A DNA stretch of 64,000 nucleotides. It comes from Bacillota bacterium (GTDB taxonomy: Bacteria; Bacillota_C; Negativicutes; JAEYSJ01). Location of the stretch: positions 1-64,000 of the forward strand of contig JAEYSJ010000096.1 of NCBI GenBank assembly GCA_023434855.1, in the 5' to 3' direction. Under the pieces are notes generated by a model. That model was not told the DNA's origin. It saw only the letters and a program-made list of their open reading frames with translations, and did not search any database. Position 1 is the first letter of the stretch, and every line of letters starts with the position of its first letter. The translations under genes were made by a program, and so were the position numbers. This document shows positions 15,345-63,600 of the stretch, piece after piece.

Positions 15345-15632
15345 GGTTTTATAAGTTATCTGATAGGAAAAGCTGTGAAAAGGAATAGTATCCACAACGT
15401 GATTTCAGAAAGCTGTTGGATGATGCGAAACAGTGTGAACAATGTGGTGAACTCGCCTTGGAGCTTCTGGCTGAAATACAGTAGGTCAAGACGGAATCCC
15501 CCGTTAGCGGGATAGGCATTAGCAGTGCTGATGAGTGTATGTTGATCATGAAATAGAGTGGTACCGCGAGAGCTTTGTCTTTCGTCTCTATAATCCGGTT
15601 TTCCGAATTATGGGGACGGAAGATTTTTTTGT
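15345..15632 (+). promoter_or_regulatory. T-box riboswitch, leucine type
   Basis: The leader has a long stem I region, the T-box core AGAGTGGTACCGCG at 15555-15568, and a terminator hairpin (CGTCTC...GGGACG with an ATAATCCGG/CCGaATTAT inner stem) ending in a T-run at 15626. The word GAACTC around 15449 fits a specifier loop with CUC, a leucine codon, as in the Bacillus ilv-leu leader. Uncharged tRNA-Leu would switch on the downstream leuA-type gene. The specifier assignment was made by eye. Confidence 0.88.
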
Positions 15633-29236: not shown

Positions 29237-30070
29237 TTATGGGCGCGCTGCACCGGTACGAATAATGGTTCCTACATGCTGTCCACGCAGAGCTGCAGTG
29301 AGTCGGCCCGGCACCAGTCCGTTAACAATTTGCACTTTTTGAATGTGGCGCGCGTTTGCCATGACTTCAAGAAGAGTACGGTCGACCGGCAATGTGCCTG
29401 TTTGTTTCGCAAGTTCGTCATAACTTATTTCGTCAATAAGCTTCGCGTTCTTTCCTTCAGGGCCATTGGGGTCGGAGCTGTAGACCCCATCCACATCCTC
29501 AACAATCGTAAGACCGGCTGCTCCAAGCGCATCCGCGATAAGGAAAGCGCCGGTGTCCGACTGGTGTATCGGTAAACGGGAGGTCGTAAACTCATGGTTG
29601 TGGTAAGGCGGAAAGGCGCTACCCACGACTGCCGGGGCACTGGCAAGGTGGATCGCTAGTTGGCTTGAGATGGTGGGTTTCTCGACGTAGGAAACGAAGT
29701 TCTGCGCGAGCAACTCTGCCAGGATATGACCGTTCTGACCCGCTTCACTGGCGGCAAGAGGAGCCAGCGAACCAACCGGAAGGCCGAGATCAAGACCGAC
29801 ACCGTAAAGATGACGGGCGCGGATACCGGCCCCAGTCAGAATGAGCAGGCGATGTTCCGGAAGGACTTTCCGGATCTCATCCACAATGGGAAGGATCGCA
29901 TCCCGGCCACGGTCAAAGATGGAGCGCCCTCCGAGCTTTATGACCTGCAGCCAGGGGAGAAGCTGCATAGGGCGCACACCCGCGACGGGGCAGGTGAGCG
30001 ATCCGTCGAGGAGAGTCTGCCGAGCGAGCGCAGAAGAAACGTGTTTAATATTGTTAGCTGTGTTTGTCAT
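29237..30070 (-). CDS. mosA: molybdenum storage protein subunit alpha
   Basis: 277 residues, amino-acid-kinase (UMP-kinase-like) fold. The N-terminus resembles Azotobacter MosA closely ([31 protein letters not shown]), with [48 protein letters not shown] and the C-terminal [20 protein letters not shown]. MosA and MosB form an (alpha-beta)3 cage that stores polyoxomolybdate or tungstate clusters with ATP. GGAGG before ATG 30070; only 13 bases after mosB. The gene pair is much more GC-rich than its surroundings, suggesting transfer. Confidence 0.92.
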
Positions 30071-30083
30071 TTATAGTACCTCC

Positions 30084-30896
30084 TTAATCTGCAGTTATAA
30101 TGGTTCCGACGTGCTCGCCAGCGAGCGCGCGTGTCAGGTTGCCGGGAACAAGGCCGTTCACGATCTGCACCTGGCGGACATGGCGGGCTTCCTTGAGAAG
30201 GTCAAGTACAGGAAACTCAAGGATAGAATCCTGTAATCCCTTCGCCTTCATCTCATCCACCGAGATCTTCGGGATAAATGTTGCGCCTTTTGTTGTCTTG
30301 GGATTGGCGGTATAAAGGCCGTTTTCATCCTTTACATAGATCATCGCCTTGCACCCAAACTGTTCCGCAACAAGGAAGCAACCGGCATCAGTGCGGTAGG
30401 GTGGAATGACATTTTCGGTAGCCGGCCGTATCCAGAGGCCGTATGGGGGCATGCCGCTGAAGATAACTGCATTCACTTCAGCCAGGTAAAGCGGAATCGC
30501 AGAGAGTCCGGCGTTGCCGACCGATGAAATGCCGTATTTGGCAAGAAGTTGTCCAAGCATCTCAGCGTTCTGATTTGCGACCGAGGCGCCCAGTTCTGAG
30601 AGTACACCGGCAGGCAGGTTGAGACCGGACGCAATCGAGTAGAGATGCCGGGCCCGTGTCCCTGCGCCTGTTCCGATCATCATTTTGTGATTCTTGCGAG
30701 CCGCGACAATCTCATCAACAAGCGGGTAAACAGCCGCCCGTCCGCGGTCAATGAAGCTCTGGCCGCCGATCTTTACAACCGTTGCGTCCGGCAGAATCCG
30801 GTAGTCTTCCGCACGCTCCGCCGCTTCGCGGAGCTCCGGATCGGACAGATGCCTCTGTTTCAAAAGCTCTTCGAGTTCTATTATAGTGTTATCCAT
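30084..30896 (-). CDS. mosB: molybdenum storage protein subunit beta
   Basis: 270 residues, the same length as Azotobacter MosB, with VVKIGGQSFIDRGRAAVYPL, MIGTGAGTRARHLYSIA, SGMPPYGLWIRPA, RTDAGCFLVAEQFGCKAMIY and GLVPGNLTRALAGEHVGTII. AAGGAGG precedes the ATG at 30896. First gene of the mosBA operon. The beta subunit carries most metal-cluster contacts in the known cage. No nitrogenase gene or molybdate ABC transporter is in the window. Confidence 0.92.
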   Translation of the reverse strand: MDNTIIELEELLKQRHLSDPELREAAERAEDYRILPDATVVKIGGQSFIDRGRAAVYPLVDEIVAARKNHKMMIGTGAGTRARHLYSIASGLNLPAGVLSELGASVANQNAEMLGQLLAKYGISSVGNAGLSAIPLYLAEVNAVIFSGMPPYGLWIRPATENVIPPYRTDAGCFLVAEQFGCKAMIYVKDENGLYTANPKTTKGATFIPKISVDEMKAKGLQDSILEFPVLDLLKEARHVRQVQIVNGLVPGNLTRALAGEHVGTIITAD

Positions 30897-36452: not shown

Positions 36453-36917
36453 TTAGTCATTGCATGAGCAATTATCGCCGCATGAACAATGGTCGCCGCA
36501 CGAACAATTATCAGCCGAAGTTACGTAAATTTCTTTAGTAGCAACATTTTCGATAGCATCAATTACTTCTTGTTTCTTCAGAATTTTATTATATTCAATT
36601 ATCCATTCAAATACAGCAGTCAAGATAGGAACAAAACTTTGGCCGATATCTGTTAATGAATATTCAACTTTTGGAGGTATTTCTTTGTATATTTCCCTAT
36701 GCACGATTCCATCACGTTCAAGTTCCCGCAACTGTTGTGTGAGTATTCCTTGTGAAATGTTGGGCAACTGTTTTTGAAGTTCACCAAATCGTCGTGTTCC
36801 TTCGCTTAAACGCCATAAAATTGCAAATTTCCATTTGCCTGCTACTAATCTTTGGATAACTGCCATTTGGGAGGCTGTCACTGGACAAAGGCTTCTAAAC
36901 GGTTGTACTTTTGCCAT
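36453..36917 (-). CDS. HxlR-family regulator with Cys-rich C-terminal tail
   Basis: 154 residues; ATG 36917, AAAGGAG upstream. Residues ~10-110 are the HxlR winged helix: [20 protein letters not shown] with the conserved redox Cys11, [26 protein letters not shown], and [16 protein letters not shown]. The last ~20 residues ([13 protein letters not shown] then CSCND) form three CSC clusters with Asp and His, absent from ordinary HxlR proteins (~110-120 aa). I infer metal or redox sensing through the tail. Divergent from the HMA gene across a shared operator-like site (37093-37109). Confidence 0.85.
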
Positions 36918-37109: not shown

Positions 37110-37132
37110 TATAACATAAAAATGCGTACTTG

Positions 37133-37147
37133 TAATGATTTCCATTA
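37133..37147. promoter_or_regulatory. palindrome at the HMA promoter
   Basis: TAATGATTTCCATTA overlaps a TTGTAA...TATAAT promoter-like pair. It could be a metal-regulator site (Fur-like), but the match is loose. Confidence 0.3.
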
Positions 37148-37315: not shown

Positions 37316-37528
37316 ATGAAGAATTCTAATCAGATTAAATTGAAGATTGAGGGTATGTCGTGCGGTATGTGCACTGGAAAGGTGGGAAAAACTCTTCAAG
37401 GTATTTCCGGGGTTAGTGAAGTAAGTGTTGATCTGGCGAAAAAGGAAGCAATCATAATTGGAGCAGTTAATCTTGCCGAGTGTATTCAGGCAATAGAAAA
37501 ACTCGGCTTTAAAGTGGAAAATGATTAA
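37316..37528 (+). CDS. heavy-metal-associated domain protein (CopZ-like metallochaperone)
   Basis: 70 residues from ATG 37316 (AAGGAAAGG upstream; the open frame to 37160 has no ribosome binding site). Single HMA ferredoxin-like fold with the metal motif GMSCGMCTGKV, then ISGVSEVSVDLAKKEAII and LGFKVEN. It binds Cu+ or another soft metal through the CxxC pair. No P-type ATPase adjacent; it stands just before the TonB receptor cluster on the same strand. Confidence 0.88.
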   Translation: MKNSNQIKLKIEGMSCGMCTGKVGKTLQGISGVSEVSVDLAKKEAIIIGAVNLAECIQAIEKLGFKVEND

Positions 37529-37574
37529 ATTTATGGCCAAGTCTATGAAAAACTGAATTCTTTTTAAAAGCATT

Positions 37575-37672
37575 TGGTCAATTCCTTTGGTATTTAGTAT
37601 CAGGTGTGATGAACGGTAAAGGATGTTAACATCTTCGGTGATTCAACTAAAGAGTAAACACCAAAGGAATCA
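37575..37672 (+). promoter_or_regulatory. structured leader RNA upstream of the TonB receptor
   Basis: ATTCCTTTGGTATTTA (37577-37592) pairs with TAAACACCAAAGGAAT (37657-37672) over 16 positions with one mismatch. The ~64-base interior contains GATGTTAACATC and other short complementarities. The structure ends a few bases before the ribosome binding site of the receptor gene. It matches no riboswitch class I can recognise; cobalamin and Moco signatures are not seen. Confidence 0.5.
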
Positions 37673-37700
37673 CTAGAGAGGGGAGAGAAAACTGACAAAT

Positions 37701-39992
37701 TTGCTACGATCATTATTTTGCAGCATTGCACTTGTTTTGACCTTGGCCTTATGGAGTCCTGGTGTAGTTAGAGCCGACCCCGAACAATCACAGACGGAGA
37801 GTACAGAAACTGCAGATGCTGAGCAGGCAAATAAGGCCCAAAGTCAAAATACTGATAAGTCTAAGGAGGAAAAAAATAAAACAATAACTGCAGGCAACAC
37901 ATCTCAACAAACCGCTATTACGGTTATCGAAGTGGAGGTCAATGCGAATAAGTATCAGGATCTGACAATTGGTCAACAAAAAAACGCTGAAGGCGTGAAT
38001 AATTATGTGGTAACCCAAAGCTCCACCGGGAGCAAATCGGATGTTGCCAATAAAGATTTGCCCCAATCAATCACCGTTGTGGGCCAAAAAATCATGAAAG
38101 ATCAGAATAACCTGACCGCGAGCGAAGCGTTGTCCAACGTCGCCGGGGTAAGGACGCAGCAATACCCTTCCTATGCCGACACACTCCTCGCTTTCTACAT
38201 CCGCGGTTTTGACGCCGGTTCCTATGTCTATACCGACGGACTATGGGATCCGTGTACTACATATTCAGGCTGGATCGGCAATGTTGACCGCATTGAGGTG
38301 CTTAAAGGTCCGGCATCGGTGCTTTACGGGAACGGGACGGCAGGTGGCCTTATCAACTACGTTACGAAAAAACCGCTTCCTTACTGGGCTTTTGCCTACG
38401 GCGCGGAGTATGGCTCCCGGGGGACGAAATCAGTGGACGCCGACATGTCCATTCCCCTGACCGAGGATAAAAAATGGCTTTCCCGCACTATTATTCAGAA
38501 TACTGATTACGCATCCTTTCAACGGGGCGCGGACCCTTACAAGCGCTTTAATGGCAGTTTTATCGTGCAAGGCCAGCCGGTTAAAAATACGACATACACT
38601 TTCGAGACCCAGTTTAATGATTACTACGGACCTTCAAGCAGCTTGCTGCCGCTGAAAGGCACGATCAATCCACCCTACGGCCTGGTGCCTTATGATGCGA
38701 ATTATTATGATCCCAGGTACAAGTCGCATACCATCGGGCGCGCCTTCTCCACCCGGGTCGACCATAAAATCAATGATATCTGGACTGTTCACTCAGGCTT
38801 GCGGTACAGTTTCTACGCCTATCAGTCGGAAACCAGAGGCGGAAGCACGCTGGTCCTGAACAGCGCAAACCCAAGTCTGAGTACGGTATCCCAAAGTTAT
38901 GGATCGATGCTCCGGTTTAACAATGCTATCGCCTGGGATACAACAGCAAATGCCAAGTTTCAAACCGGTGAGCTGGGCCACGATTTGACGACAGGCATTA
39001 CCTGGGCTCATTTTAACCAATACATTCCTTATTTTCTCCGGGGCTCCTCCGCCGCAGTCAATGTTCTGGATCCCGTCTTCGCGGGCGAGCCGACTCTAAG
39101 CAAGTTTGGCATGGGCATGGGCGGGCGGCATTCCGAGAGTGAAAGGTACGGCGCATATCTATCTGATGTGGTTGCGCTGTCGCCGAAATTCAAGGTGAAT
39201 CTGGGTGAAAGCCTGACAATGCAGTCAAGCAGCATTGACGGCTCTTACCGCAGGCATAATTCCGGCAGCGCGAGGCGGATTGGGACGACATATGAGACCT
39301 CACCCGGGGTGACCTGGTTTGCCGGCACCGAAACTTACTATGAACCACAAGTTCCCCGAAACGACGGTTACCAATATATATACTTCCCCCCCGAAACCGG
39401 CGACCAGGTCGAAGGCGGCGTGAAAGTGGATGTCAGCGACCGCGCCAGTGTTACCTTGTCTGTTTACCGTATCAACCGGGAAAATATCGTTTACGGAGTC
39501 CAGGATCCGTACGACGTACTTCATACGATATATAGTCTTGTCGGCAAACAGCGCAGCAAGGGGTTTGACCTTGACGCCAGCTATGTTATTAGGCCGGGGT
39601 GGAATGTGTCACTGGCTTATTCCCATTGTGATGCCCGGGTTCTTTCAAGTGACTCCTACGCCTCCAACAGCGTGGTTCCCAACGTGCCGCTCAATTCCGT
39701 CAAGCTTTGGAGTACCTATGAATATCAGGACGGGCCGCGGAAGGGATGGGGCTTTGGCGGCGGCCTGACCTTTGCCGGAAAACGCACAGTTGATACTAAT
39801 AACAGTCTGGGATGGATGGACGGTTATACTGTATTTGATGCCGTAGTCTATTATAAAACCAAAGATTGGCGGTATTCGCTGAATGTCTATAACCTGACCA
39901 ACGAGAAATACTGGGAATCGGGCAGTTCGTCCGGCGTTTATGCAGGCACTCCCCGCAGCTTTGTCCTCCGTATCGAAAGAAGTTTCTTTTAA
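37701..39992 (+). CDS. TonB-dependent outer-membrane receptor (siderophore-receptor type)
   Basis: 763 residues, TTG start at 37701; GGGGAGAG upstream. Signal peptide residues 1-25 (LFCSIALVLTLALW, cleavage near VRA-D). A Ser/Gln/Lys-rich linker and possible TonB box (TAITVIEVEVN) precede the plug domain (~115-235: DLPQSITVVGQKIMKDQNN, FYIRGFD, RIEVLKGPASVLYGNGTAGG). A 22-strand barrel follows, ending GTPRSFVLRIERSFF with the outer-membrane terminal Phe. It imports a metal complex across an outer membrane, which shows that the host is diderm. No tonB-exbBD genes nearby. Confidence 0.93.
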   Translation: MLRSLFCSIALVLTLALWSPGVVRADPEQSQTESTETADAEQANKAQSQNTDKSKEEKNKTITAGNTSQQTAITVIEVEVNANKYQDLTIGQQKNAEGVNNYVVTQSSTGSKSDVANKDLPQSITVVGQKIMKDQNNLTASEALSNVAGVRTQQYPSYADTLLAFYIRGFDAGSYVYTDGLWDPCTTYSGWIGNVDRIEVLKGPASVLYGNGTAGGLINYVTKKPLPYWAFAYGAEYGSRGTKSVDADMSIPLTEDKKWLSRTIIQNTDYASFQRGADPYKRFNGSFIVQGQPVKNTTYTFETQFNDYYGPSSSLLPLKGTINPPYGLVPYDANYYDPRYKSHTIGRAFSTRVDHKINDIWTVHSGLRYSFYAYQSETRGGSTLVLNSANPSLSTVSQSYGSMLRFNNAIAWDTTANAKFQTGELGHDLTTGITWAHFNQYIPYFLRGSSAAVNVLDPVFAGEPTLSKFGMGMGGRHSESERYGAYLSDVVALSPKFKVNLGESLTMQSSSIDGSYRRHNSGSARRIGTTYETSPGVTWFAGTETYYEPQVPRNDGYQYIYFPPETGDQVEGGVKVDVSDRASVTLSVYRINRENIVYGVQDPYDVLHTIYSLVGKQRSKGFDLDASYVIRPGWNVSLAYSHCDARVLSSDSYASNSVVPNVPLNSVKLWSTYEYQDGPRKGWGFGGGLTFAGKRTVDTNNSLGWMDGYTVFDAVVYYKTKDWRYSLNVYNLTNEKYWESGSSSGVYAGTPRSFVLRIERSFF

Positions 39993-40095
39993 AGCCCGGT
40001 TAATAATAAATGCAATCCGATGCCGGACCGGGTGGGTCAGAAGGACAGGCCAGCCTGGCATTGCCTGTGGAAAACGGGAGCAAGGAGTATAGGAA

Positions 40096-41844
40096 TTGAA
40101 ACAGAAGATCGGAAAAGCATGGATTTTTTTGCGTGATGTATCAGGAATTCTGCTTCCTTACTGGCGTTCCGGTGAAAGCCGGCTAGCGGGCGCGATGGTT
40201 GCCGGCGTATTGGGCCTAGTTGTCGGGCGGATCTATTTGGATGTTCAAATCACCAACTGGTGGAAGGGTTTTTTCGACGCCATTCAATCGTTGGATTATG
40301 CCGGATATGTCCACCAGTTACTTAGGTACGCCTTATTGTCGCTTCTTGTTTTTCCGTTGCAGGGCTGTATCATTTATCTGCAGGGGCTCTTAAAGATACG
40401 CTGGCGCCGCTGGTTATCAGAGCGATATGTCGGCCAATGGCTGAACGAAGTCAATTATTATCGTGTCCAATACGTTGACGGCACGGATAATCCCGACCAG
40501 CGGATCGCCGAGGATCTTCGGATTCTTGCGGAAAGGACGGTTGAGCTGGTACTGGACTTTGTTTCGACATTGGGCTCGTTGGCAGCATTTTCGGTTGTGC
40601 TGTGGAATTCGCAGTGGGTGTTTGCAGTTGGCGAAGTAAGGATTCCCGGGGCCATGCTATGGCTGGCCGCATTCTATTCCCTTGCCGGAACATGGGTTAA
40701 TCATACCATGGGGAAGGCACTGGCCGCCTTAACCTGGGAAAAGCAAAAGTGGGAGGCAAATTACCGGTTCGCGCTGATGCGGCTAAGAGAAAACGCTGAG
40801 CTAGTCGCCGTCTACGGCGGTGAAGTCCGGGAAAAATATGGCTTAACCGGAAGGCTTGCGCAAATCGTTGCTACCCAGTTACAGATTATTCATCGCAATA
40901 AAAGGCTGGACTGGTTTTTCCGCGGCTACTTTCAATTGTCACAAGTTTTGCCGTATTTACCGCTGGCGCCGCTGTACATCGCGGGGAGTATCAGCCTGGG
41001 CGATATGCAGCAGGCTGCTTCCGCTTTTGCCAGGTTGAGGATGTCATTTTCGTGGTTCATTATGAATTACGAGAAGTTAGCGGAGTGGAAAGCGACCGCC
41101 GACAGAGTGATTGGTCTGGAAAAAGCTATGATTCAAACCGCGGCGCTGCAGGTGGGCGGGGTAATCCGCGCGACTGGACCGTATAGGGAAGGCCTCCGGG
41201 TTGCTCAGCTTGACCTGTGGCTTCCGGACGGCAAGCCGCTGCTAAAGGGAATCACCATGGATATTCTGCCAGGTGACCGGTTATTGATTTCCGGTCCGCC
41301 GGGCTGTGGAAAAACGGCTTTCTTTCACGCCATTAACGGGTTATGGCCGTTTTGCCGCGGAACCATAACACTGCCGGCGGCGGCCCGGTTGTTGTTTATT
41401 CCGCAAAAACCGTTTCTGCCGATTGACACACTCAGGCAAGCACTGGTTTATCCTGATTCGGCGGACGACTACGATACGGAGCTTATCAGGCAGACGCTAA
41501 AGGATTGCGGACTGTCCCGGCTAGGCGGCCGGCTTGACGAAGAACGGCACTGGCAGCAGGAACTTTCCCCCGGGGAACAGCAGCGGTTTGCTTTCGCCCG
41601 GGCGATGCTGCTCAGGCCGCAATGGCTCTTTCTTGACGAAACAACCTCGGCGCTGGATGAGGCCAGCGAGGCTGCTCTATACCGGCTGCTTGCGGATACT
41701 TTGCCCCAAACGGCGGTTGTGAGTATTGCGCACAGAGCTTCGCTGATTCGCTTTCACGAGCATTGGCTGGATTTTGCCAACAAGGCAGGGGGTTACGCGG
41801 GAGGCATGCCGCAAGATAAGCTTTTTATGAATATGACTTACTAG
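40096..41844 (+). CDS. YddA/SbmA-like ABC transporter, fused permease and ATPase (first copy)
   Basis: 582 residues, TTG start after AAGGAG. N-terminal ~330 residues hold about six membrane helices with the SbmA/BacA_like pattern (RWRRWLSERYVGQWL, DNPDQRIAEDLR). ABC domain: Walker A GPPGCGKT near residue 400, signature LSPGEQQ near 490, Walker B WLFLDETTSALDE near 511. Family members move peptides, bleomycin, B12 or related compounds. 103 bases after the TonB receptor. Paralogue of the protein at 42696; together they could form a heterodimer. Confidence 0.88.
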   Translation: MKQKIGKAWIFLRDVSGILLPYWRSGESRLAGAMVAGVLGLVVGRIYLDVQITNWWKGFFDAIQSLDYAGYVHQLLRYALLSLLVFPLQGCIIYLQGLLKIRWRRWLSERYVGQWLNEVNYYRVQYVDGTDNPDQRIAEDLRILAERTVELVLDFVSTLGSLAAFSVVLWNSQWVFAVGEVRIPGAMLWLAAFYSLAGTWVNHTMGKALAALTWEKQKWEANYRFALMRLRENAELVAVYGGEVREKYGLTGRLAQIVATQLQIIHRNKRLDWFFRGYFQLSQVLPYLPLAPLYIAGSISLGDMQQAASAFARLRMSFSWFIMNYEKLAEWKATADRVIGLEKAMIQTAALQVGGVIRATGPYREGLRVAQLDLWLPDGKPLLKGITMDILPGDRLLISGPPGCGKTAFFHAINGLWPFCRGTITLPAAARLLFIPQKPFLPIDTLRQALVYPDSADDYDTELIRQTLKDCGLSRLGGRLDEERHWQQELSPGEQQRFAFARAMLLRPQWLFLDETTSALDEASEAALYRLLADTLPQTAVVSIAHRASLIRFHEHWLDFANKAGGYAGGMPQDKLFMNMTY

Positions 41845-41873
41845 AACAATTAACAAGTTTGGAGGATATTCCA

Positions 41874-42629
41874 ATGGAGAAAATTGATGCTATGGAACCG
41901 GTCGGGGAAGTAATCAGTGAATGGGAGGAAGAGGTCCGCGTCATAAAAATCAGGCCGGAATATTTGCCGGCAACGCAGCGGATGGCAGAACACGGCTATT
42001 TTTGGATTTTGTCCTGGTTTCATAAGGCAAACAGAAGCTTGCTGAAAATGCATTTTACCGCTATCGACAAAACATACGGGGTATTTGGTGTCCGTACACC
42101 GGGAAGGCCGAATCCCATCGCATTATCGCTTGTTAAACTGGTTAGGGTGGCCGGAGATGAAATTCATGTTACCGGACTGGATGCGGCCCAGGGGACACCG
42201 GTGCTGGATATCAAACCCTATTTTGAAGCAGATATCGTATTTTCGCCGCCAACACCACATATGCATATGCATTCGAACGACGAGGTATTCCGGAAGCAAG
42301 CCTTGGCGCATCACGGTGAAGTTTGCCAAGGACTGGAACTGGCAGTGAAAATGGCATTATTGGCGGAGAAACACTTCGGGCAGATACAGGCGCCTGACTT
42401 GAAGCTTGTGATTACAGGCGATCCCTGCTTAGCCGATGTTCTGCAGGGGCTGACCCGGGCTCGTTTGGCAAATCCCGGACGGCTGATTTATAAGGGAGAG
42501 GCGGAAAAAACAGAAGTAATCTGGCAAAAAAACGGCAGAACCATGCATGTGACTGTGCCTTCGGAACTGAGTATAGACGAAATCAAGCAAAAAGACGGAG
42601 AAACGTTATTTGCAGTAAAAATCCTATGA
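41874..42629 (+). CDS. TrmO-like (UPF0066) domain fused to FmdE-like domain
   Basis: Start probably ATG 41874 after GGAGG (ATG is codon 6 of a longer open frame from 41859). Residues ~5-135: TrmO/TsaA SAM-binding beta-barrel (PVGEVISEW, FWILSWFHKA, GVFGVRTPGRPNPIALSLV). Residues ~140-250: FmdE-like domain (AHHGEVCQGLELAVKMALLA, TGDPCLADVLQGLTRARLAN), with His/Cys positions like the FmdE metal site though HGEVCQG replaces HGHLCPG. TrmO methylates tRNA t6A, but the FmdE fusion and metal context suggest a different, metal- or ligand-linked methyl transfer. Tightly spaced between the two ABC genes. Confidence 0.8.
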   Translation: MEKIDAMEPVGEVISEWEEEVRVIKIRPEYLPATQRMAEHGYFWILSWFHKANRSLLKMHFTAIDKTYGVFGVRTPGRPNPIALSLVKLVRVAGDEIHVTGLDAAQGTPVLDIKPYFEADIVFSPPTPHMHMHSNDEVFRKQALAHHGEVCQGLELAVKMALLAEKHFGQIQAPDLKLVITGDPCLADVLQGLTRARLANPGRLIYKGEAEKTEVIWQKNGRTMHVTVPSELSIDEIKQKDGETLFAVKIL

Positions 42630-42695
42630 TTTAATAAGCCGGTGGCAAGCCATTTTTGGCACTATTATTTTGGACAAAGGAGTTACCTAGAGGCG

Positions 42696-44408
42696 ATGGC
42701 GGCTAAAACAACATCTTTTTATCGCGATTTATGGGGAATCATTCGTCCTTTTTGGCGGACGAGGGAAGGCCGGGTGGCGGGAGCACTGCTGGCAGGCGCG
42801 TTGGCCCTGACCGTTTTCCGGCTTTATGTGAATGTGCTGCTTAATGAATGGCAGAAGCTTTTTTTCAACGCCATCCAGTTAATGAACACCGCTGAGTTCA
42901 CCCATCAGCTTCTTCGGTTTGGCGGCCTGTCCTTGCTGTTTTTGCCGCTTAACGGCTGCCAGAGATATTTGCTGGGACTTGCGCAAATCCGCTGGCGCCA
43001 GTGGTCGTCGGAGAATTATACCAATAGATTGCTAAAAGGGCGAAACTATTACCGTCTTCGGTACGCAGCCGGCGACATGGACAATCCTGACCAGCGTATC
43101 GCCGAGGACTTGCGGCTATTTCCCGTGGATACAGTCAACATGGCTTTCGGTTTTATTGAAGCAATGGGATCGCTTACGGCATTCTCTATGATATTGTGGA
43201 ATTCTCCGGGATCGCCGGAATTAGGCGGGATGATAATACCCGGGTTTCTGTTCTGGCTGGCCTTCTTCTTTTCACTGGCTGGCTCTTGGGCCAATCATCT
43301 TATGGGAAAGATCCTCAGCATATTTAAACGCGAGCAACAAAAATATGAGGCAAATTACCGGTTTTCTCTGGTGTGGCTGCGGGAGCATGCCGAGTCAATC
43401 GCCGCATACAGCGGTGAGGAGCGGGAAAAGGAAGTTCTCGCCGACCGCTTCGGCAGCATTGCCGGAATGTGGCGAAGCATTTTGCGCCGGAATAGAACTC
43501 TGGATTGGTTTTTCAGTGGCTATAATCAGTTGTCGTTCATCTTGCCCTATTTGGTGTTGGCTTCACGCTTTTTTGCCGGGGCGATTTTACTCGGTGACGT
43601 GCAACAATCCGCCAACGCATTTTCCCAGACCAGAATGGCATTTTCCTGGTTCATCTACAATTACGGGTCGCTGGCGGAGTGGAAAGCCACGGTCGACCGG
43701 CTCATCGGTTTTGAAAAGGCGATGGCGGCAACCGAAGCGTTGCAGCCAACCCAATTAAGCTGCAAGAGCGGGCCGGCAGCAAAAGGACTGCGCGTTGCCG
43801 GACTGGACGTGTGGCTTCCCGACGGCAAGCCGCTACTGCAAGGAATTACCTTCACGCTTCAGCCAGGCAGCCGAACTTTAGTTTCCGGGCCTCCGGGTTG
43901 TGGAAAAACCACTCTTTTTCACGCGATCAACGGATTATGGCCGTTTTGCCGGGGAAATATCACGCTGCCTACAGGCGCACGGATGTTATTTATTCCGCAA
44001 AAACCGTTTCTGCCGATTGGCACGCTGCAACAGGCAATGGTTTATCCAGATGCAATAGTCGGTTATGAAACAGATCTCCTTCGACAGGCGCTGGTGGATT
44101 GCGGGCTGCCTCAGTTATATGGTCAATTGGACGCAGAACTGCACTGGGAGCAGCAACTTTCGTCCGGCGAGCAACAACGGCTGGCTTTCGCCCGCGCCTT
44201 GTTGCTTCGGCCTCAATGGCTTTTTCTTGATGAAGCGACATCGGCGCTGGACGAGTTAAGTGAAAACCAACTCTACCGGCTTCTTTTGGACAGGCTGCCA
44301 GATACAGCAATAATCAGTATCGCCCATAAGCCTTCTCTAAAGAAGTTTCATGAACGAATAATAGATCTTTACCAACCGGCAGGTTTGGCTTTCGTCGGCG
44401 AAAAGTAA
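42696..44408 (+). CDS. YddA/SbmA-like ABC transporter, fused permease and ATPase (second copy)
   Basis: About 570 residues from ATG 42696, which matches the length of the first copy; a GTG at 42642 would add 18 residues. Upstream AAGGAG is 13 bases away. Same domain order as the 40096 gene: RWRQWSSENYTNRLL, DNPDQRIAEDLR, Walker A GPPGCGKTTL, signature LSSGEQQRLAFARAL, Walker B WLFLDEATSALDE. It has a canonical EATSALD Walker B, whereas copy 1 has ETTSALD. Export of a synthesised metallophore or inner-membrane import step are both possible. Confidence 0.88.
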   Translation: MAAKTTSFYRDLWGIIRPFWRTREGRVAGALLAGALALTVFRLYVNVLLNEWQKLFFNAIQLMNTAEFTHQLLRFGGLSLLFLPLNGCQRYLLGLAQIRWRQWSSENYTNRLLKGRNYYRLRYAAGDMDNPDQRIAEDLRLFPVDTVNMAFGFIEAMGSLTAFSMILWNSPGSPELGGMIIPGFLFWLAFFFSLAGSWANHLMGKILSIFKREQQKYEANYRFSLVWLREHAESIAAYSGEEREKEVLADRFGSIAGMWRSILRRNRTLDWFFSGYNQLSFILPYLVLASRFFAGAILLGDVQQSANAFSQTRMAFSWFIYNYGSLAEWKATVDRLIGFEKAMAATEALQPTQLSCKSGPAAKGLRVAGLDVWLPDGKPLLQGITFTLQPGSRTLVSGPPGCGKTTLFHAINGLWPFCRGNITLPTGARMLFIPQKPFLPIGTLQQAMVYPDAIVGYETDLLRQALVDCGLPQLYGQLDAELHWEQQLSSGEQQRLAFARALLLRPQWLFLDEATSALDELSENQLYRLLLDRLPDTAIISIAHKPSLKKFHERIIDLYQPAGLAFVGEK

Positions 44409-44425
44409 TGATTAGAGGTGAGAGC

Positions 44426-44884
44426 ATGGGAAAACAAAATGCCCCGTCGCCGAACCTTATGATAGTAGAAGGTGATGAAGAAGCGGGAGCATATATCAAA
44501 CTAAGACTGTGGCAGTACAGCATGTCCCAAGTTCGCTATGACAGGGAGCGGGTCATCGAATCGGTTTACCTTATGCTAAAAGACCCGGACAAACAAATCA
44601 TGGGTGGCTTAGTCGCTTATATCGATACTTATTGGCGAAGTTGCCACATTAATATTTTGTGGATTGAGGAACAGTATCGGAATTTAGGTTATGGCAGTCA
44701 ATTGCTTCGTAAACTGGAGGAGATTGTCCAAAAGAGAAAGTGCGGTCTTATCACCCTAAACACTGCCAGTTTTTACGCGCCCGAGTTCTATGCCAAACAC
44801 GAATATGAATTATGCGGAGCAATAAATAATTATCCGCCGGGTCACTCGCTATATTATTTCAAGAAAACTATTACCTCTAAATAA
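44426..44884 (+). CDS. GNAT-family acetyltransferase
   Basis: 152 residues from ATG 44426 (AGAGGTG six bases upstream). The GNAT core is visible as IMGGLVAYIDTYWRSCHINI, WIEEQYRNLGYGSQLLRKLE (acetyl-CoA pyrophosphate loop) and TASFYAPEFYAKHEYELCGA. It starts 17 bases after the second ABC gene. In this context it could acylate a small ligand or the transported compound; this is inferred only from position. Confidence 0.85.
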   Translation: MGKQNAPSPNLMIVEGDEEAGAYIKLRLWQYSMSQVRYDRERVIESVYLMLKDPDKQIMGGLVAYIDTYWRSCHINILWIEEQYRNLGYGSQLLRKLEEIVQKRKCGLITLNTASFYAPEFYAKHEYELCGAINNYPPGHSLYYFKKTITSK

Positions 44885-44907
44885 TCTTAAAAAGGAGAGT
44901 GTATTTC

Positions 44908-45639
44908 ATGTCCATGCTGGAAGAAGCCAGAACACGGTTGAGGAACATAATCGTAAATAATGGATGGAATGAGACTGAAAAAATATACATTGTATCGGCG
45001 CGCGATCTTACTCCGGTCGAAGCGATCGGGAAACCGGACCGTGACGATTATCCTTTGCTCAACGGGAAAGAAGTGATGCTGGAATCGCGTTTCCGGGAGG
45101 CCGCAGGACAGGCGTTTACCGACCAGCCGGGCCAATTTGAAGGTACCTTGGATGATGTGTTACATATGCCTCTCAATACAAATTTCCGGCGGGCGGTTTT
45201 CGTTTCAACGTTGAATGCGGTAATGCGGTATTTAAAACAGGCAGAGGCAACAATTCATTGTAAAGACAAAGAACCGGCGCTTTGCGCCCAGAAGTTGCCG
45301 AAATATATTCGAAAACATTATGGTCAACCAAAGATAGCATTTATCGGATTTCAGCCTGCTATGATCCAAGTTTTGAGTGATGAGGGATTTGACTTGCGAG
45401 CAACTGATCTTAATCCGGCTAATGTAGGCCAAATTCGAAGCGGTACTTACATTTATGATGCGAATCTTAATGCGGAACATACTCGTTGGGCAGATATTGT
45501 GTTGGCTACTGGCACTATACTAGTGAATGATACTTACCGTGAGTTGCAGCAGGGAAAACCAATAATATATTACGGCGTAACCGTAGCTGGTTTGGCTGAA
45601 ATGTTTAATTTGACGAGAATTTGTTTTTATGGACATTAG
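44908..45639 (+). CDS. DUF364 (putative heavy-metal chelation) protein
   Basis: 243 residues, ATG 44908 after AAAGGAG. N-terminal DUF4213-like part, then the DUF364 Rossmann-like half with KIAFIGFQPAMIQVL, FDLRATDLNPANVGQ, HTRWADIVLATGTILVNDTY and IIYYGVTVAGLAEMFNLTRI. Related proteins occur next to metal ABC transporters and FmdE-like genes in anaerobes and are annotated as putative heavy-metal chelation proteins. Last gene of the cluster. No strong terminator is visible behind it. Confidence 0.85.
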   Translation: MSMLEEARTRLRNIIVNNGWNETEKIYIVSARDLTPVEAIGKPDRDDYPLLNGKEVMLESRFREAAGQAFTDQPGQFEGTLDDVLHMPLNTNFRRAVFVSTLNAVMRYLKQAEATIHCKDKEPALCAQKLPKYIRKHYGQPKIAFIGFQPAMIQVLSDEGFDLRATDLNPANVGQIRSGTYIYDANLNAEHTRWADIVLATGTILVNDTYRELQQGKPIIYYGVTVAGLAEMFNLTRICFYGH

Positions 45640-45886
45640 TATAGCAAAAACAAAAAAGGCGGAATCACCGAGCATTCTTACTAAATACCCCTATGTAAAA
45701 GCAGCGGGGATTTCCCTGTTCCTTGTTAAAAAGTTCTCTCATACTTTTGGGTGATGCTTTTCAAATAGCAATAGCTGTAAAATTGAAACAAGACAGTGGT
45801 AATCTTGGCTTCTGAAGCAAACAATTTTTTGTCAATTGGTAAAAGAGTATCACTTTTGGCATTTATATAAAGATGGGGTGATTTTT

Positions 45887-46822
45887 ATGAGAGAGAAGAT
45901 TAATCAAACAACAACGGCGATATTAATGGCTTATTTACGTGGCTACCATGCTGCATGCGATTTTCCGAAGATATTTGATGATTATCTAGCTTATCAAATG
46001 ATAGGAGAAGAGGTGTGTACATTCTACGAGCAACAATATACAAGTCTGCGGAGTCTCCAGTTTTTAGAGTATCTTGGCTTTAAAGGCAGTGCACAGAATG
46101 ATAATAAAGCAGCTACCTTGGCCATGGCAATTCATGGCTATTCCCCTTTACCTCTTCCGGTAAGTCGTTCTCGGTATGCGGAAGACAATCTGGAACAAGC
46201 TGTGAGGCAAGGCATACGGCAATATGTAATTCTCGGGGCTGGGTTGGATACGTTCGCATTCCGTCGGCCATCAATGCTGGAAGAGCTGCAGGTATTTGAA
46301 GTCGATCACCCCAATATGCAGGAATATAAGCGGCGCCGTCTTAGCGAACTAGGCTGGAGTTTACCTGCACAACTGCATTTTGTTCCGGTTGATCTTGTAC
46401 AAGAAAGTCTAAGCACAGCACTTAGCTGTTCTTCATATGACCCGCAGTCTCCAAGTTTTTTTAACTGGCTAGGCGTAACTTATTATTTGACCCGGGATGC
46501 AGTGTTCAACACCTTGTCAACCATTTCTCAGTTTGCTCCTTCAGGAAGCATTATTGTATTTGACTATGCTCATAAAGACGTATTTGTTCCGGAGAAAACC
46601 TCTGAGCTTATGCAAATTGGATTAAAGTTTTGTAAGGAGCAGGGTGAACCATGGCTCACTGGCTTTGACCCGTCTGAGCTTGCTACAGAACTTGCATCAA
46701 TAGGCTTACGTGTTCAAGAAGATTTGACCCCACACGATATTCAAGAACGCTTCTTTCAGGGACGCACAGATAACTATCATGCATATGAACTTGTACATTT
46801 TTTATCGGCAATAGTTGAATAA
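45887..46822 (+). CDS. class I SAM methyltransferase, leucine-carboxyl-methyltransferase-like
   Basis: 311 residues from ATG 45887 after GGGGTG. Motifs of the LCM/TIGR00027 family: N-terminal MAYLRGYHA, PVSRSRYAEDNLEQAV, the SAM site YVILGAGLDTFAFRRPS, VFEVDHPNMQEYKRRRL, and FFNWLGVTYYLTRDAVFNTL. In related clusters such enzymes O-methylate small molecules or polyketides. Separate from the metal cluster by ~250 bases. Confidence 0.88.
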   Translation: MREKINQTTTAILMAYLRGYHAACDFPKIFDDYLAYQMIGEEVCTFYEQQYTSLRSLQFLEYLGFKGSAQNDNKAATLAMAIHGYSPLPLPVSRSRYAEDNLEQAVRQGIRQYVILGAGLDTFAFRRPSMLEELQVFEVDHPNMQEYKRRRLSELGWSLPAQLHFVPVDLVQESLSTALSCSSYDPQSPSFFNWLGVTYYLTRDAVFNTLSTISQFAPSGSIIVFDYAHKDVFVPEKTSELMQIGLKFCKEQGEPWLTGFDPSELATELASIGLRVQEDLTPHDIQERFFQGRTDNYHAYELVHFLSAIVE

Positions 46823-48792: not shown

Positions 48793-49089
48793 TTACCACC
48801 ACCAGTGGTGGCAGGAATGATGATGATGGAATGGATATGGAAAAGGGAATGGTATGGGATATGGAACGGGAAATGCTACCGGAAAACCGGTTACCGGAAA
48901 ACCGGCTACCGGAAAATCAGTTGCTGGAAAACCAGCTACTGGAAATCCAGCTACTGGAAATCCATTTACCGATGTCACCGATGCCACTGCGTTGGGGCTG
49001 GTTGCGGTTCCCAGCGTGCCGGTAGGCTGGCCCATCGGATGGCATGAATTTTGTTGTTGCTGGGGTTGCCGCCAGTATCCATAGTACAT
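48793..49089 (-). CDS. repeat-rich small protein with VAGFP repeats and His/Trp tail
   Basis: 98 residues, GGAGG seven bases before ATG 49089. N-terminus MYYGYWRQPQQQQNSCHPMG, then five-residue repeats (VNGFP, VAGFP twice, ATDFP, VAGFP, VTGFP), a Pro/Phe run, and the tail HHHHSCHHWWW. Low complexity with aromatic, His and Gln content recalls spore-coat or exosporium proteins. It lies directly upstream of, and divergent from, the ycaO gene. Its MYYxY start resembles the other repeat protein at 51243. Metal binding by the His tail is plausible. Confidence 0.7.
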   Translation of the reverse strand: MYYGYWRQPQQQQNSCHPMGQPTGTLGTATSPNAVASVTSVNGFPVAGFPVAGFPATDFPVAGFPVTGFPVAFPVPYPIPFPFPYPFHHHHSCHHWWW

Positions 49090-49346: not shown

Positions 49347-51164
49347 ATGGACTCAGCAGATATGAAGTACAAGGACGAAACGCCCATCAAAACGATTAAC
49401 CAGGTAAGGAATATTCTTGGTGAGATGGGCCTTCTCACGGTGGAAACCTCCTGGAAAAATACGGTGAATGGTTTTTACTCGGTGAGTGTGATGATCGACA
49501 ATACGGTTCTGATGACCAATGGAAAAGGAACTTCGGTTGAATTCGCCCTAGCCAGCGCATATGGCGAGATGATGGAACGTCTGCAAAATTTTTGCCATTA
49601 TAGACTAAGTCTGGATTTGGATTCCAAGGTTATGGAATACCTTGGCTTTTATTATGCCCCGGACGAGAAACCAATGAGTACCGACGAGTTCCTTGTCAGT
49701 GGCGAAGACTGGATTAAAACCCAATTGTCCAGAATGAACCCTACGCTGGACAAACGGGAACTTCTGGCAAAATGGCAGACGGTGTCTTATGAGAAAGTGC
49801 CCGCCGATTTTATCGCTCTACCTTATTGCAATCTTAACAGCAAGCGTATTTCTCATATCCCGATAAAAATGGTCTCGCTGATGTACATGTCGAATGGCAT
49901 GTGTGCCGGCAATTCGCCCGAAGAGGCTTTGGTTCAGGGAATATCCGAGATCATGGAACGCTACGCCAACAAGAGAATCCTTAGGGAGAGAATAGTACCG
50001 CCCACTATCCCGCGGCGTTATATCGCAAAGTTTCCCAAGATTGAGGCGATGATTGCCGAACTCGAAAAAAGCGGCAATTTCGAAGTTGTCGTCAAAGACT
50101 GCTCGCTGGGACAAAAGTTGCCAGTTGTAGGCGTTATCCTGGTTAATAAGAATGACCAGAATTATTTTGTAAAATTTGGTGCTCATCCTAAATTTGAAAT
50201 AGCGGCAGAGCGGACATTGACCGAACTTCTTCAGGGGCAGGACATCAAATTGATGATGGGAGTCAGGGAGTTTTGCGTCAGGAGTACGACGGACGATCCG
50301 GAAAACTACAGGAGCATACTGGTGACCGGCTCAGGGCTTTATCCCACGGAATTTTTCAGCCGAAACTTCAGTTATCAGTTCAACGAATTCGAAGAAACTG
50401 CGATAACTACCAACAAGGAAATGCTGGCTTATATGGTCGACCTGCTGGCTCAAATAGGCTACGAGACATATGTACGTGATGTTTCGTTCCTGGGCTTTCC
50501 GAGCTTTCATGTTATTGTTCCCGGCTTGAGCGAAGTCTCGGGATTTGATGAGTTAAACCCCATTAGCGACTATGCTGCCTTCAACACCTTCAAAAGACTG
50601 GTTAAAAAAATCGACTGCCTCGATGACGCCGGTGCCGCCACGATCATCAGTTTTTTGCAAAACATGAATTATACTCCTGACGCTACAGTCATGGATCTGA
50701 TCAATCTACCGGTACGTAGTAAAGCGTTTCCCTGGTATTATGCTAATGTTGACTTATTTGTCACTGCGCTAAACTACTGGAAAGGCGACATCGACAAAGC
50801 CTATGAGACCTTTACCAAATTTCTAAGTTATGCCCAGCGAGCCAATCCACAGCGCCAAGTGTTAACGTATTACAAGTGCGTTCGGGATTTTCTGGCGAGC
50901 AGGCTTGAAGGACTTGCGGAAAATGAGGCGATAAGCACACTGAGTATGTTTTACCCGCAGGAGGTAATCCGGGAGGTCGTGATTGAATTCAGCTCGCCGG
51001 CGGAAATTATCAGTTACCAAGGACAATTAAATTGCTTCGATTGCGAGAAATGCCAGTTCTTAAAACAGTGCCTTTATCCGCCGATGGAAGGGATTTACAA
51101 AATACTTAAGGAGCGGTATGCCTCCGGCGGAATAGATCAGAACAATCTCAAGGAGCTGGTATAA
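49347..51164 (+). CDS. YcaO-family ATP-dependent enzyme, long form with C-terminal Cys cluster
   Basis: 605 residues; GAGGTG six bases before ATG. Nucleotide-binding motifs: S70-x3-E74-x2-E77-R78 (SAYGEMMERL), a second helix GISEIMERYANK near residue 200, and AAERTLTELLQG near 285. The overall layout (SNGMCAGN, CSLGQKLPVVG, FGAHPKFEIA) follows E. coli YcaO (586 aa), including the helical TPR-like C-terminal part. It lacks the PxPxP end of azoline cyclodehydratases and instead has CFDCEKCQFLKQC near residues 561-573. YcaO enzymes use ATP to activate peptide backbone amides; E. coli YcaO assists RimO in modifying S12. Flanking Cys-rich repeat proteins are possible substrates. Confidence 0.88.
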   Translation: MDSADMKYKDETPIKTINQVRNILGEMGLLTVETSWKNTVNGFYSVSVMIDNTVLMTNGKGTSVEFALASAYGEMMERLQNFCHYRLSLDLDSKVMEYLGFYYAPDEKPMSTDEFLVSGEDWIKTQLSRMNPTLDKRELLAKWQTVSYEKVPADFIALPYCNLNSKRISHIPIKMVSLMYMSNGMCAGNSPEEALVQGISEIMERYANKRILRERIVPPTIPRRYIAKFPKIEAMIAELEKSGNFEVVVKDCSLGQKLPVVGVILVNKNDQNYFVKFGAHPKFEIAAERTLTELLQGQDIKLMMGVREFCVRSTTDDPENYRSILVTGSGLYPTEFFSRNFSYQFNEFEETAITTNKEMLAYMVDLLAQIGYETYVRDVSFLGFPSFHVIVPGLSEVSGFDELNPISDYAAFNTFKRLVKKIDCLDDAGAATIISFLQNMNYTPDATVMDLINLPVRSKAFPWYYANVDLFVTALNYWKGDIDKAYETFTKFLSYAQRANPQRQVLTYYKCVRDFLASRLEGLAENEAISTLSMFYPQEVIREVVIEFSSPAEIISYQGQLNCFDCEKCQFLKQCLYPPMEGIYKILKERYASGGIDQNNLKELV

Positions 51165-51242: not shown

Positions 51243-51569
51243 TTACCGCCTGCACTTCATACAATGGCAGGAGTGGCAGGAATGGCAGCTCTTAAACGGG
51301 AAGCAGGACTGGCAACTACCCATCGGGAAGCAGGAATGACAGCTCTTACATGGGAAGCAAGACTGACAGCTACCCATCGGGAAGCAAGACTGACAGCTAC
51401 CCATCGGGAAGCAGGACTGGCAGCTACCCATCGAGAAGCAAGACTCGCAGCTACCCATCGGGAAGCAGGAATGGCAGCTACCCATTGAGAAACAGGACTG
51501 GCAACTACTCATCGAGTAGCGGCCACTATACATAATGTCGTCATCGTCATCGTCATAGTCATAATACAT
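51243..51569 (-). CDS. Cys/Ser nine-residue repeat protein (coat-like or precursor peptide)
   Basis: 108 residues from ATG 51569; GGAG is 11 bases upstream. An acidic leader-like N-terminus (MYYDYDDDDDDIMYSGRYSM) is followed by eight tandem copies of S-C-x-S-C-F-x-x-G/K (for example SCQSCFPMG) and a basic Cys/His end (CHSCHCMKCRR). Twenty-one or so cysteines, all in CxxC spacing. Convergent with ycaO. Reading: spore-coat or metallothionein-like protein, or substrate for the YcaO enzyme, since Cys and Ser are the residues YcaO cyclodehydratases heterocyclise. The acidic leader plus repeats resembles a multi-core RiPP precursor, but this is inference. Confidence 0.7.
   Translation of the reverse strand: MYYDYDDDDDDIMYSGRYSMSSCQSCFSMGSCHSCFPMGSCESCFSMGSCQSCFPMGSCQSCFPMGSCQSCFPCKSCHSCFPMGSCQSCFPFKSCHSCHSCHCMKCRR
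51265..51515. repeat. 27-bp tandem repeat inside the Cys-rich gene
   Basis: About eight to nine imperfect copies with a 27-base period (for example units around CCCATCGGGAAGCAGGACTG). In frame with the protein repeats, so slippage would change the repeat number without breaking the gene. Confidence 0.8.
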
Positions 51570-51846
51570 TAAACAATCATCTCCATATATAATTTGTAGG
51601 TAACCTATTAACATAATATGACGACGCCGTGTAAGATGTTACAACGTAAAGGGTATTTTTTCTTAATATCATTATAAATGGCAGCTATGATATCAGACAC
51701 ACCGGATATTTGGGACATTTTAGAAAATACAACAATATAATATAGCGGAAATATCTTATGAAAGCTAAACAAAAGATAAACGAGAAAGTCAATTGTTTCA
51801 TAGAATACCCAAATGCTAAATAAGATTAAGATTAGGAGAGATATTG

Positions 51847-63495: not shown

Positions 63496-63600
63496 AAACC
63501 TGTAGAACCGGTTTGGTCCCACAGGTTTTTACCTGCTGCTTTATGAGCCCAGCTACGCCGAATTGATCGGCCGCCTGATCCTCAATATAGTGCTTTGGAA
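63496..63600 (-). promoter_or_regulatory. probable NiCo (czcD) riboswitch with terminator
   Basis: The minus-strand leader of the CDF gene folds into GCCGA/TCGGC and GCTG/CAGC hairpins around AGGCGGCC, GTAGCTGGG and GCAGCAGG blocks that resemble the czcD four-way junction. It ends in ACCTGT...ACAGGT with an eight-base T-run (plus strand A-run 63487-63494). Class assignment is from memory of the motif and gene context; covariance search not run. Confidence 0.55.

Follow-up and report, generated by a model that had tools for sequence, protein, structure and literature searches.

The 64,000-nucleotide stretch analysed here (positions 1 to 64,000 of contig JAEYSJ010000096.1, from a Negativicutes member of the Bacillota; hereafter the window) carries a gene cluster in which a TonB-dependent receptor stands with two fused ATP-binding cassette (ABC) transporters of the YddA type, a TrmO-FmdE fusion protein, a GNAT acetyltransferase and a DUF364 protein. 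The core of this cluster is a real and recurring module, and a new form of the pairing of a TonB receptor with a YddA homologue, a pairing established in operons elsewhere (PMC5095587). We read the cluster as an import line, dependent on TonB, that would deliver a soluble metal-ligand complex to the cytosol for processing. To this explanation, taken whole, we assign a probability of about 0.45; that a metal complex is imported is, on its own, likely.

Open reading frames and Pfam searches placed six genes on the + strand at 37701-45639, in the order receptor, ABC1, TrmO-FmdE, ABC2, GNAT and DUF364, with successive gaps of 103, 14, 12, -1 and 14 bases (Table 1). The close, co-directional spacing and the families agree with a preliminary description of this DNA; Pfam and NCBIfam confirmed all six families, and TrmO-FmdE and DUF364 were also confirmed by comparing predicted with solved structures. 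The limits drawn in that description (37530..45639) held for the six genes but were too tight for the unit. Because an HMA gene lies near 12 of 13 relatives of the receptor and an HxlR orthologue near eight, the HMA gene and the divergent HxlR gene upstream belong to it. The cluster has a GC content of 0.494, compared to 0.403 in the remainder of the window, and of the 13 loci for which GC was computed, the window among them, 10 have a cluster richer in GC than its flanks (exceptions L001, L096 and L098; loci are cited by our L numbers). This raised GC suggests horizontal movement of the cluster. An island borne on a tRNA gene was rejected, as the window contains 0 tRNA genes.

Table 1. Features of the window, with positions counted from its first letter.
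Feature	Position	Strand	Evidence or remark
Molybdenum storage protein genes mosBA, two subunits	29237..30896	-	486.4 and 435.5 bits to 2ogx chains; outside the unit
HxlR-type regulator, divergent	36453..36917	-	PF01638, 112.1 bits; cysteine-rich C-terminal tail
Candidate operator TGCGTACTTGTA (12-mer)	37123..37134	+	Between HxlR and HMA
HMA protein, 70 amino acids	37316..37528	+	PF00403, 52.3 bits on longer open reading frame; MSCGMC motif; signal peptide not evident
TonB-dependent receptor, siderophore type	37701..39992	+	TIGR01783, 227.7 bits (cut-off 223.5)
ABC1, fused YddA-type ABC transporter	40096..41844	+	PF06472, PF05992, PF00005; lineage of L001, L091
TrmO-like S-adenosylmethionine (SAM) domain fused to FmdE-like domain	41859..42629	+	TrmO_N and FmdE; probable start 41874
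ABC2, fused YddA-type ABC transporter	42642..44408	+	ABC_membrane_2/SbmA_BacA and ABC_tran; lineage of L092, L093
GNAT acetyltransferase	44408..44884	+	PF00583, 38.5 bits; possible passenger
DUF364 protein	44899..45639	+	Pfam, 31.4 bits; probable start 44908
TIGR00027 SAM-dependent methyltransferase	45836..46822	+	174.6 bits (cut-off 93.55); 196 bases 3' of cluster; membership uncertain

Relatives of the receptor occurred at 13 places in at least 11 of 380 Negativicutes genomes. The cut-off (1e-150) was our own choice, and the class searches with the receptor and ABC1 scored two and three candidates per genome, respectively, among the matches listed, which makes 11/380 a lower bound; the 13 loci, picked for the similarity of their receptors, share common descent. 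An intact HMA reading lay near 12 of them and a YddA-type ABC gene stood in the same gene run at 12, L095 being the exception in both cases. The gene for TonB was present at 10 places and those for ExbB and ExbD at nine (L091 is a 6.3 kb contig ending in TrmO-FmdE, with any TonB genes beyond its reach). Seven loci in six genomes (L096-L102) shared the compact order HMA, receptor, TonB, ExbB, ExbD, ABC. In the neighbourhood comparison across Negativicutes that the preliminary description called for, YddA, receptor and HMA stood together at 12 of 13 places, while TrmO-FmdE and DUF364 were found in two and three of the 13 modules, respectively. YddA-like proteins are themselves common (271 of 380 genomes at E 1e-115). 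In a sample of 24 YddA loci with flanks of about 1.5 kb (L104-L127), one of which is a module locus (L111), none of the 23 plain loci (L104-L110, L112-L127) had a receptor match in these short flanks; in an earlier plain sample (L069-L075), L073 had a distant match (25%) alongside.

Individual modules vary. That of Sporomusa ovata (L094, 3746-17653) is expanded: two receptors are interleaved with genes for GidB-like methyltransferases, DUF364, ABC, TonB and ExbBD, and HxlR is separated from HMA by a DUF134 gene. L095 (4087-12270) has two related receptors, HMA fragments only, one of which contains a stop, and lacks a YddA-type gene; it reads as a decaying or rebuilt copy. Genes resembling nitrogenase component 1, URO-D, DUF1638 and HGD-D lie near some modules (L096 1-2809, L098 16198-19950, L102 15219-16430).

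The two ABC proteins of the window are homologous, as first described, but do not derive from a local duplication. Both have the YddA-type arrangement of ABC_membrane_2 and ABC_tran in one chain, with intact Walker A, Q-loop, signature, Walker B and H-loop. A tree built from 25 ABC proteins, all from Negativicutes, placed ABC1 with the lone module ABC that L001 and L091 each have, where TrmO-FmdE follows, and ABC2 with the module ABC of L092 and L093, where DUF364 follows (support 100/99 in each case). Two supported clades rule out a recent tandem duplication, and the occurrence of each lineage alone elsewhere rules out an obligate YbtPQ-like heterodimer, so that homodimers are the simpler reading. 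Since the lineages pair separately with TrmO-FmdE and DUF364, the window joins two exchangeable cassettes (ABC1 with TrmO-FmdE, ABC2 with DUF364) behind one receptor. The best solved relative of ABC1 was 6tqe (276.2 bits), which we take to be Rv1819c, with chains of the ABCD family next, among them ABCD4, the lysosomal cobalamin transporter. Rv1819c and ABCD4 share the fused ABC_membrane_2-type build with the window transporters, but the latter accompany an outer-membrane receptor. Rv1819c, which is nearer to YddA than to SbmA, imports cobalamin and is described as the sole corrinoid transporter, identified without a binding protein (PMC3603451).

The small HMA protein was assigned a start at 37316; a longer listed open reading frame from 37160 has an unconserved extension. 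Its best NCBIfam match, the CopZ family model, scored 64.8 bits on the longer frame and so missed the cut-off of 85, while the Pfam HMA cut-off was passed. Among nine HxlR proteins compared, six have the cysteine-rich tail (window, L001, L091-L094) and three lack it (L098, L100, L101), and those with it are the ones whose loci also carry TrmO-FmdE or DUF364. The 12-mer TGCGTACTTGTA was found exactly in five of nine HxlR-HMA intergenic regions (window, L001, L091, L092, L098), and its copy in Table 1 is the sole exact one in the window; with two mismatches allowed, matches in the window did not rise above shuffles. Across 162 loci it was confined to regions upstream of HxlR genes, including a second HxlR gene in L091, and may for this reason be a general HxlR site.

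The probable starts of TrmO-FmdE and DUF364 were chosen using database copies (251 and 243 amino acids) and upstream bases. In its predicted structure, the TrmO-like part matched the fold of SAM-bound AF0241 (2nv4), and the fusion protein combines this SAM-type fold with an invariant H/H/E/C/C set. Its score against the tRNA methyltransferase equivalog TIGR00104 was 85 bits, below the cut-off of 93.25, which makes tRNA a doubtful substrate. The FmdE-like part and the DUF364 protein passed their Pfam cut-offs (PF02663 and PF04016) and matched the corresponding folds, again in predicted structures. For DUF364, it has been proposed in print that the protein makes or hydrolyses chelators resembling flavins, pterins or siderophores (PMC2954201). 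Two further SAM methyltransferase families appear, the GidB-like genes in the S. ovata version and the TIGR00027 gene after the window cluster; they are consistent with ligand methylation as a theme, and do not demonstrate it. As neither the GNAT gene nor the TIGR00027 gene had a match in the 13 related loci, these two may be passengers.

Which metal is carried? The preliminary description named molybdenum or tungsten, iron, nickel and cobalt. Of these, Mo/W is the best supported, through the neighbours of relatives of two genes, and the HMA protein adds copper to the list. We surveyed 66 TrmO-FmdE loci, of which 64 were usable (in L025 and L066 the anchor gene was not called, and several lie on short contigs). 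Within six genes of TrmO-FmdE, a metal-type ABC transporter gene was found in 31 of the 64; ModA-, ModB- or ModD-like genes were present in 16, and DUF364-like genes in six, all six of which also had ModA- or ModB-like genes. Neighbour clusters were each labelled from one annotated representative; those of ModA, ModB and ModD exceeded their own NCBIfam cut-offs. Loci of this kind with FecBCD or ModAB encode the same fused protein (39-70% identical), whereas the window pairs it with YddA-type transporters. A sister locus type in Sporomusa and its kin (L003, L004, L005, L006, L008, L009, L010) has TrmO-FmdE with FmdE, FecB, FecCD and a radical SAM protein, mostly also with ExbBD-TonB and another receptor. 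In S. acidovorans, ModD lies inside the module operon.

DUF364 was found at 19 places in 17 of the 380 genomes. We viewed 18 with their flanks (L144 was left out, and L160 and L162 end at contig ends), and at 11 of these genes of the orange-protein (ORP) type (Orp3/Orp4-like ferredoxin-ATPases, Orp8-like or other ORP-like genes, MrpORP) lay within about 8 kb, once directly beside the module (L092). The same queries gave no match in 66 TrmO-FmdE loci (1.09 Mb) or 24 YddA loci. DUF134 stood alone, without an ORP-type gene, at two places (L094 and L157), the latter also with ModB- and ModA-like genes. The DUF364 copies of modules form a clade with that of L148 (99/100), adjoining mostly ORP-linked copies. 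Orp8 has homologues that carry an S2MoS2CuS2MoS2 cluster; the cluster of MrpORP is reported to be a different one (PMC6345978).

Near the cluster, the preliminary description had also pointed to the HMA gene and to mosBA. The former is part of the unit; the latter genes are genuine but were rejected as part of it, being on the opposite strand with unrelated genes between. They have a GC content of 0.54-0.56 in a window of 40% GC. The only MoSto homologue found among the 380 genomes was in S. ovata, also a module carrier, and one genome is too few to weigh, so that proximity of mosBA is weak evidence for molybdenum.

Several observations weigh against molybdenum, or against the explanation as a whole. 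None of the tested neighbours was present at 26 of the 64 TrmO-FmdE loci, and neither an ORP-type nor a DUF134 gene lay near DUF364 at L093, L148 and L149. The window itself, unlike ORP loci, has no ORP match (of these queries only DUF364 matched). Eight of the 13 modules (L095-L102) had no match to TrmO-FmdE, DUF364 or ModD, and ModA or a separate FmdE was matched at none of the 13 within the fetched flanks. Rfam gave no molybdenum-cofactor riboswitch or other match near the cluster. Finally, the CxxC motif of the HMA protein suggests a soft metal, for example Cu(I), rather than molybdate. Because eight modules lack all three, TrmO-FmdE, DUF364 and ModD are accessories to a core module whose metal could differ, and for the same reason we lowered our estimate for Mo/W as the main metal, which we now hold as a tentative choice at somewhat under even odds. 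A Mo-Cu species would reconcile the DUF364-ORP association with the soft-metal signal of the HMA protein.

Gene content, the recurrence of the module, the pairing of ABC lineages with their partners and the gene associations are observed; the scheme that follows, from direction, ligand and metal to sensing and each catalytic step, is inferred. The receptor would take a metal-ligand complex through the outer membrane, and one or both YddA-type proteins would then move it across the inner membrane with no need of a periplasmic binding protein, in the manner of Rv1819c with cobalamin. TrmO-FmdE, with its SAM-type barrel and Cys/His site, and DUF364 would alter the ligand or accept the metal in the cytosol, and the HMA protein would buffer soft metal arriving with the complex. 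HxlR might sense metal or redox state via its cysteine-rich tail and act on the divergent promoter. As for the metal, the window's version would most likely carry molybdenum (or tungsten), perhaps in a Mo-Cu form or as a species of thiomolybdate type. A stronger form of this scheme is a dedicated TonB-dependent molybdenum route in diderm Firmicutes, in which a Mo or Mo-Cu/thiomolybdate-like complex enters intact and is taken apart by TrmO-FmdE and DUF364 through changes to its ligand, with copper caught by the HMA protein and molybdenum handed on to ORP-type or MoSto proteins; we regard this form as doubtful.

Uptake of a siderophore carrying iron or another metal, for example with a thiazoline or pyochelin-like ligand, is favoured by the receptor: it passes TIGR01783, with Pfam Plug and barrel matches of 62.1 and 127.7 bits, and its nearest solved chain is the enantio-pyochelin receptor (3qlb, 173.8 bits), followed by pseudopaline and ferrioxamine receptors. 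YddA would then replace FecCD, and the soluble enzymes would dismantle the siderophore. FecBCD operons and systems of the YbtPQ or PchHI type likewise combine a TIGR01783 receptor with an ATP-driven inner-membrane importer. The window differs from them in the ABC family, in lineages that occur singly elsewhere and so form no obligate pair, and in having, as first described, no binding protein or FecCD permease: one FecB and one FecCD query (tblastn) gave no match in the window, nor in the 13 related loci. For a Sporomusa termitida cluster with a TonB receptor, the predicted product is a pyochelin-like metallophore (PMC12971057), but no long synthetase gene lies alongside the module in the loci listed, and the FmdE, ModD and DUF364-ORP links are not iron markers. 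The best Fur-like site in the window (14/19) was equalled in 13 of 200 shuffles and relatives had none, by which Fur control was ruled out. We consider siderophore uptake unlikely, if the best of the alternatives.

Next comes a chelate system for copper or another soft metal, marked by the CxxC HMA protein and the cysteine-tailed HxlR, with TrmO-FmdE and DUF364 as accessories gained in some Sporomusa-type loci. The HMA protein is indeed the steadiest partner of the receptor, and its closest family model is that of CopZ. However, HMA domains bind metals besides copper, the loci read yielded no copper ATPase, and the Mo-linked accessories would be left unexplained. This too seems improbable.

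Uptake and export of a metal ligand had both been envisaged. The module of HMA, receptor, (TonB-ExbBD) and YddA without FecB or FecCD argues for import, and export is the less likely direction. It would require the YddA-type proteins to export a metallophore or toxic compound while the receptor alone imports, a division of labour that we find rather hard to credit. The architecture of both ABC proteins is exporter-like type IV. In one report, E. coli YddA acts as a multidrug exporter of the ABC class (PMC9728188), which also counts against the import line; YddA-dependent uptake has been suggested in E. coli as well (PMC10971958), and with both proposed its direction is disputed. Cobalamin import by Rv1819c (PMC3603451) tells against export, as does the module itself, where no other inner-membrane importer was found (FecCD 0/13). 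Least probable is a Fus-like import in which a metalloprotein, or a fragment derived from a protein, is taken up and YddA hands on the cofactor once it is freed: the Fus operon (FusABCD, Pectobacterium) and E. coli yddA-yddB-pqqL share with the window a TonB receptor operon with a fused YddA-type ABC protein, the Fus operon having a TonB-like protein (as do many relatives of the window module) and an M16 protease (PMC5095587), and an M16C peptidase gene adjoins the HxlR gene in L094, but a single M16C query matched neither the window nor any of the other 12 loci, the receptor belongs to the siderophore type, and the window adds HMA, cytosolic TrmO-FmdE, DUF364 and GNAT.

Further from the cluster, the only Rfam matches in the whole window were a T-box at 15366 and a NiCo riboswitch at 63512-63593 (-; 40.3 bits, gathering 37), the sole metal riboswitch found, and on this basis an Rfam-type regulatory RNA upstream of the cluster was ruled out. 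A YcaO protein of the ribosomal S12 accessory type (49347-51164, +; NF040716 317 bits, below the cut-off of 700) is followed by an FAD-linked oxidase. Two small repeat proteins (51243-51614 and 48793-49089, both -), one of SCQSCFPMG-like units and the other of GFPVA units ending in His and Trp, give the impression of spore-coat proteins.

Among the papers listed in searches of an open-licence library, none described this gene combination in its title or abstract opening, and a 2026 structural paper terms the function of the YddA family unknown (PMC13316013). With YddA-type proteins linked, in a compact and recurring operon, to a single outer-membrane receptor, a metal-binding protein and cytosolic enzymes that can be named, the substrate and direction of these transporters become testable in culturable Sporomusa. 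If the import line is real, DUF364 and the TrmO-FmdE fusion would gain a place in a concrete pathway; if the molybdenum route were also true, it would provide a physiological substrate class for the YddA family and a function for DUF364.

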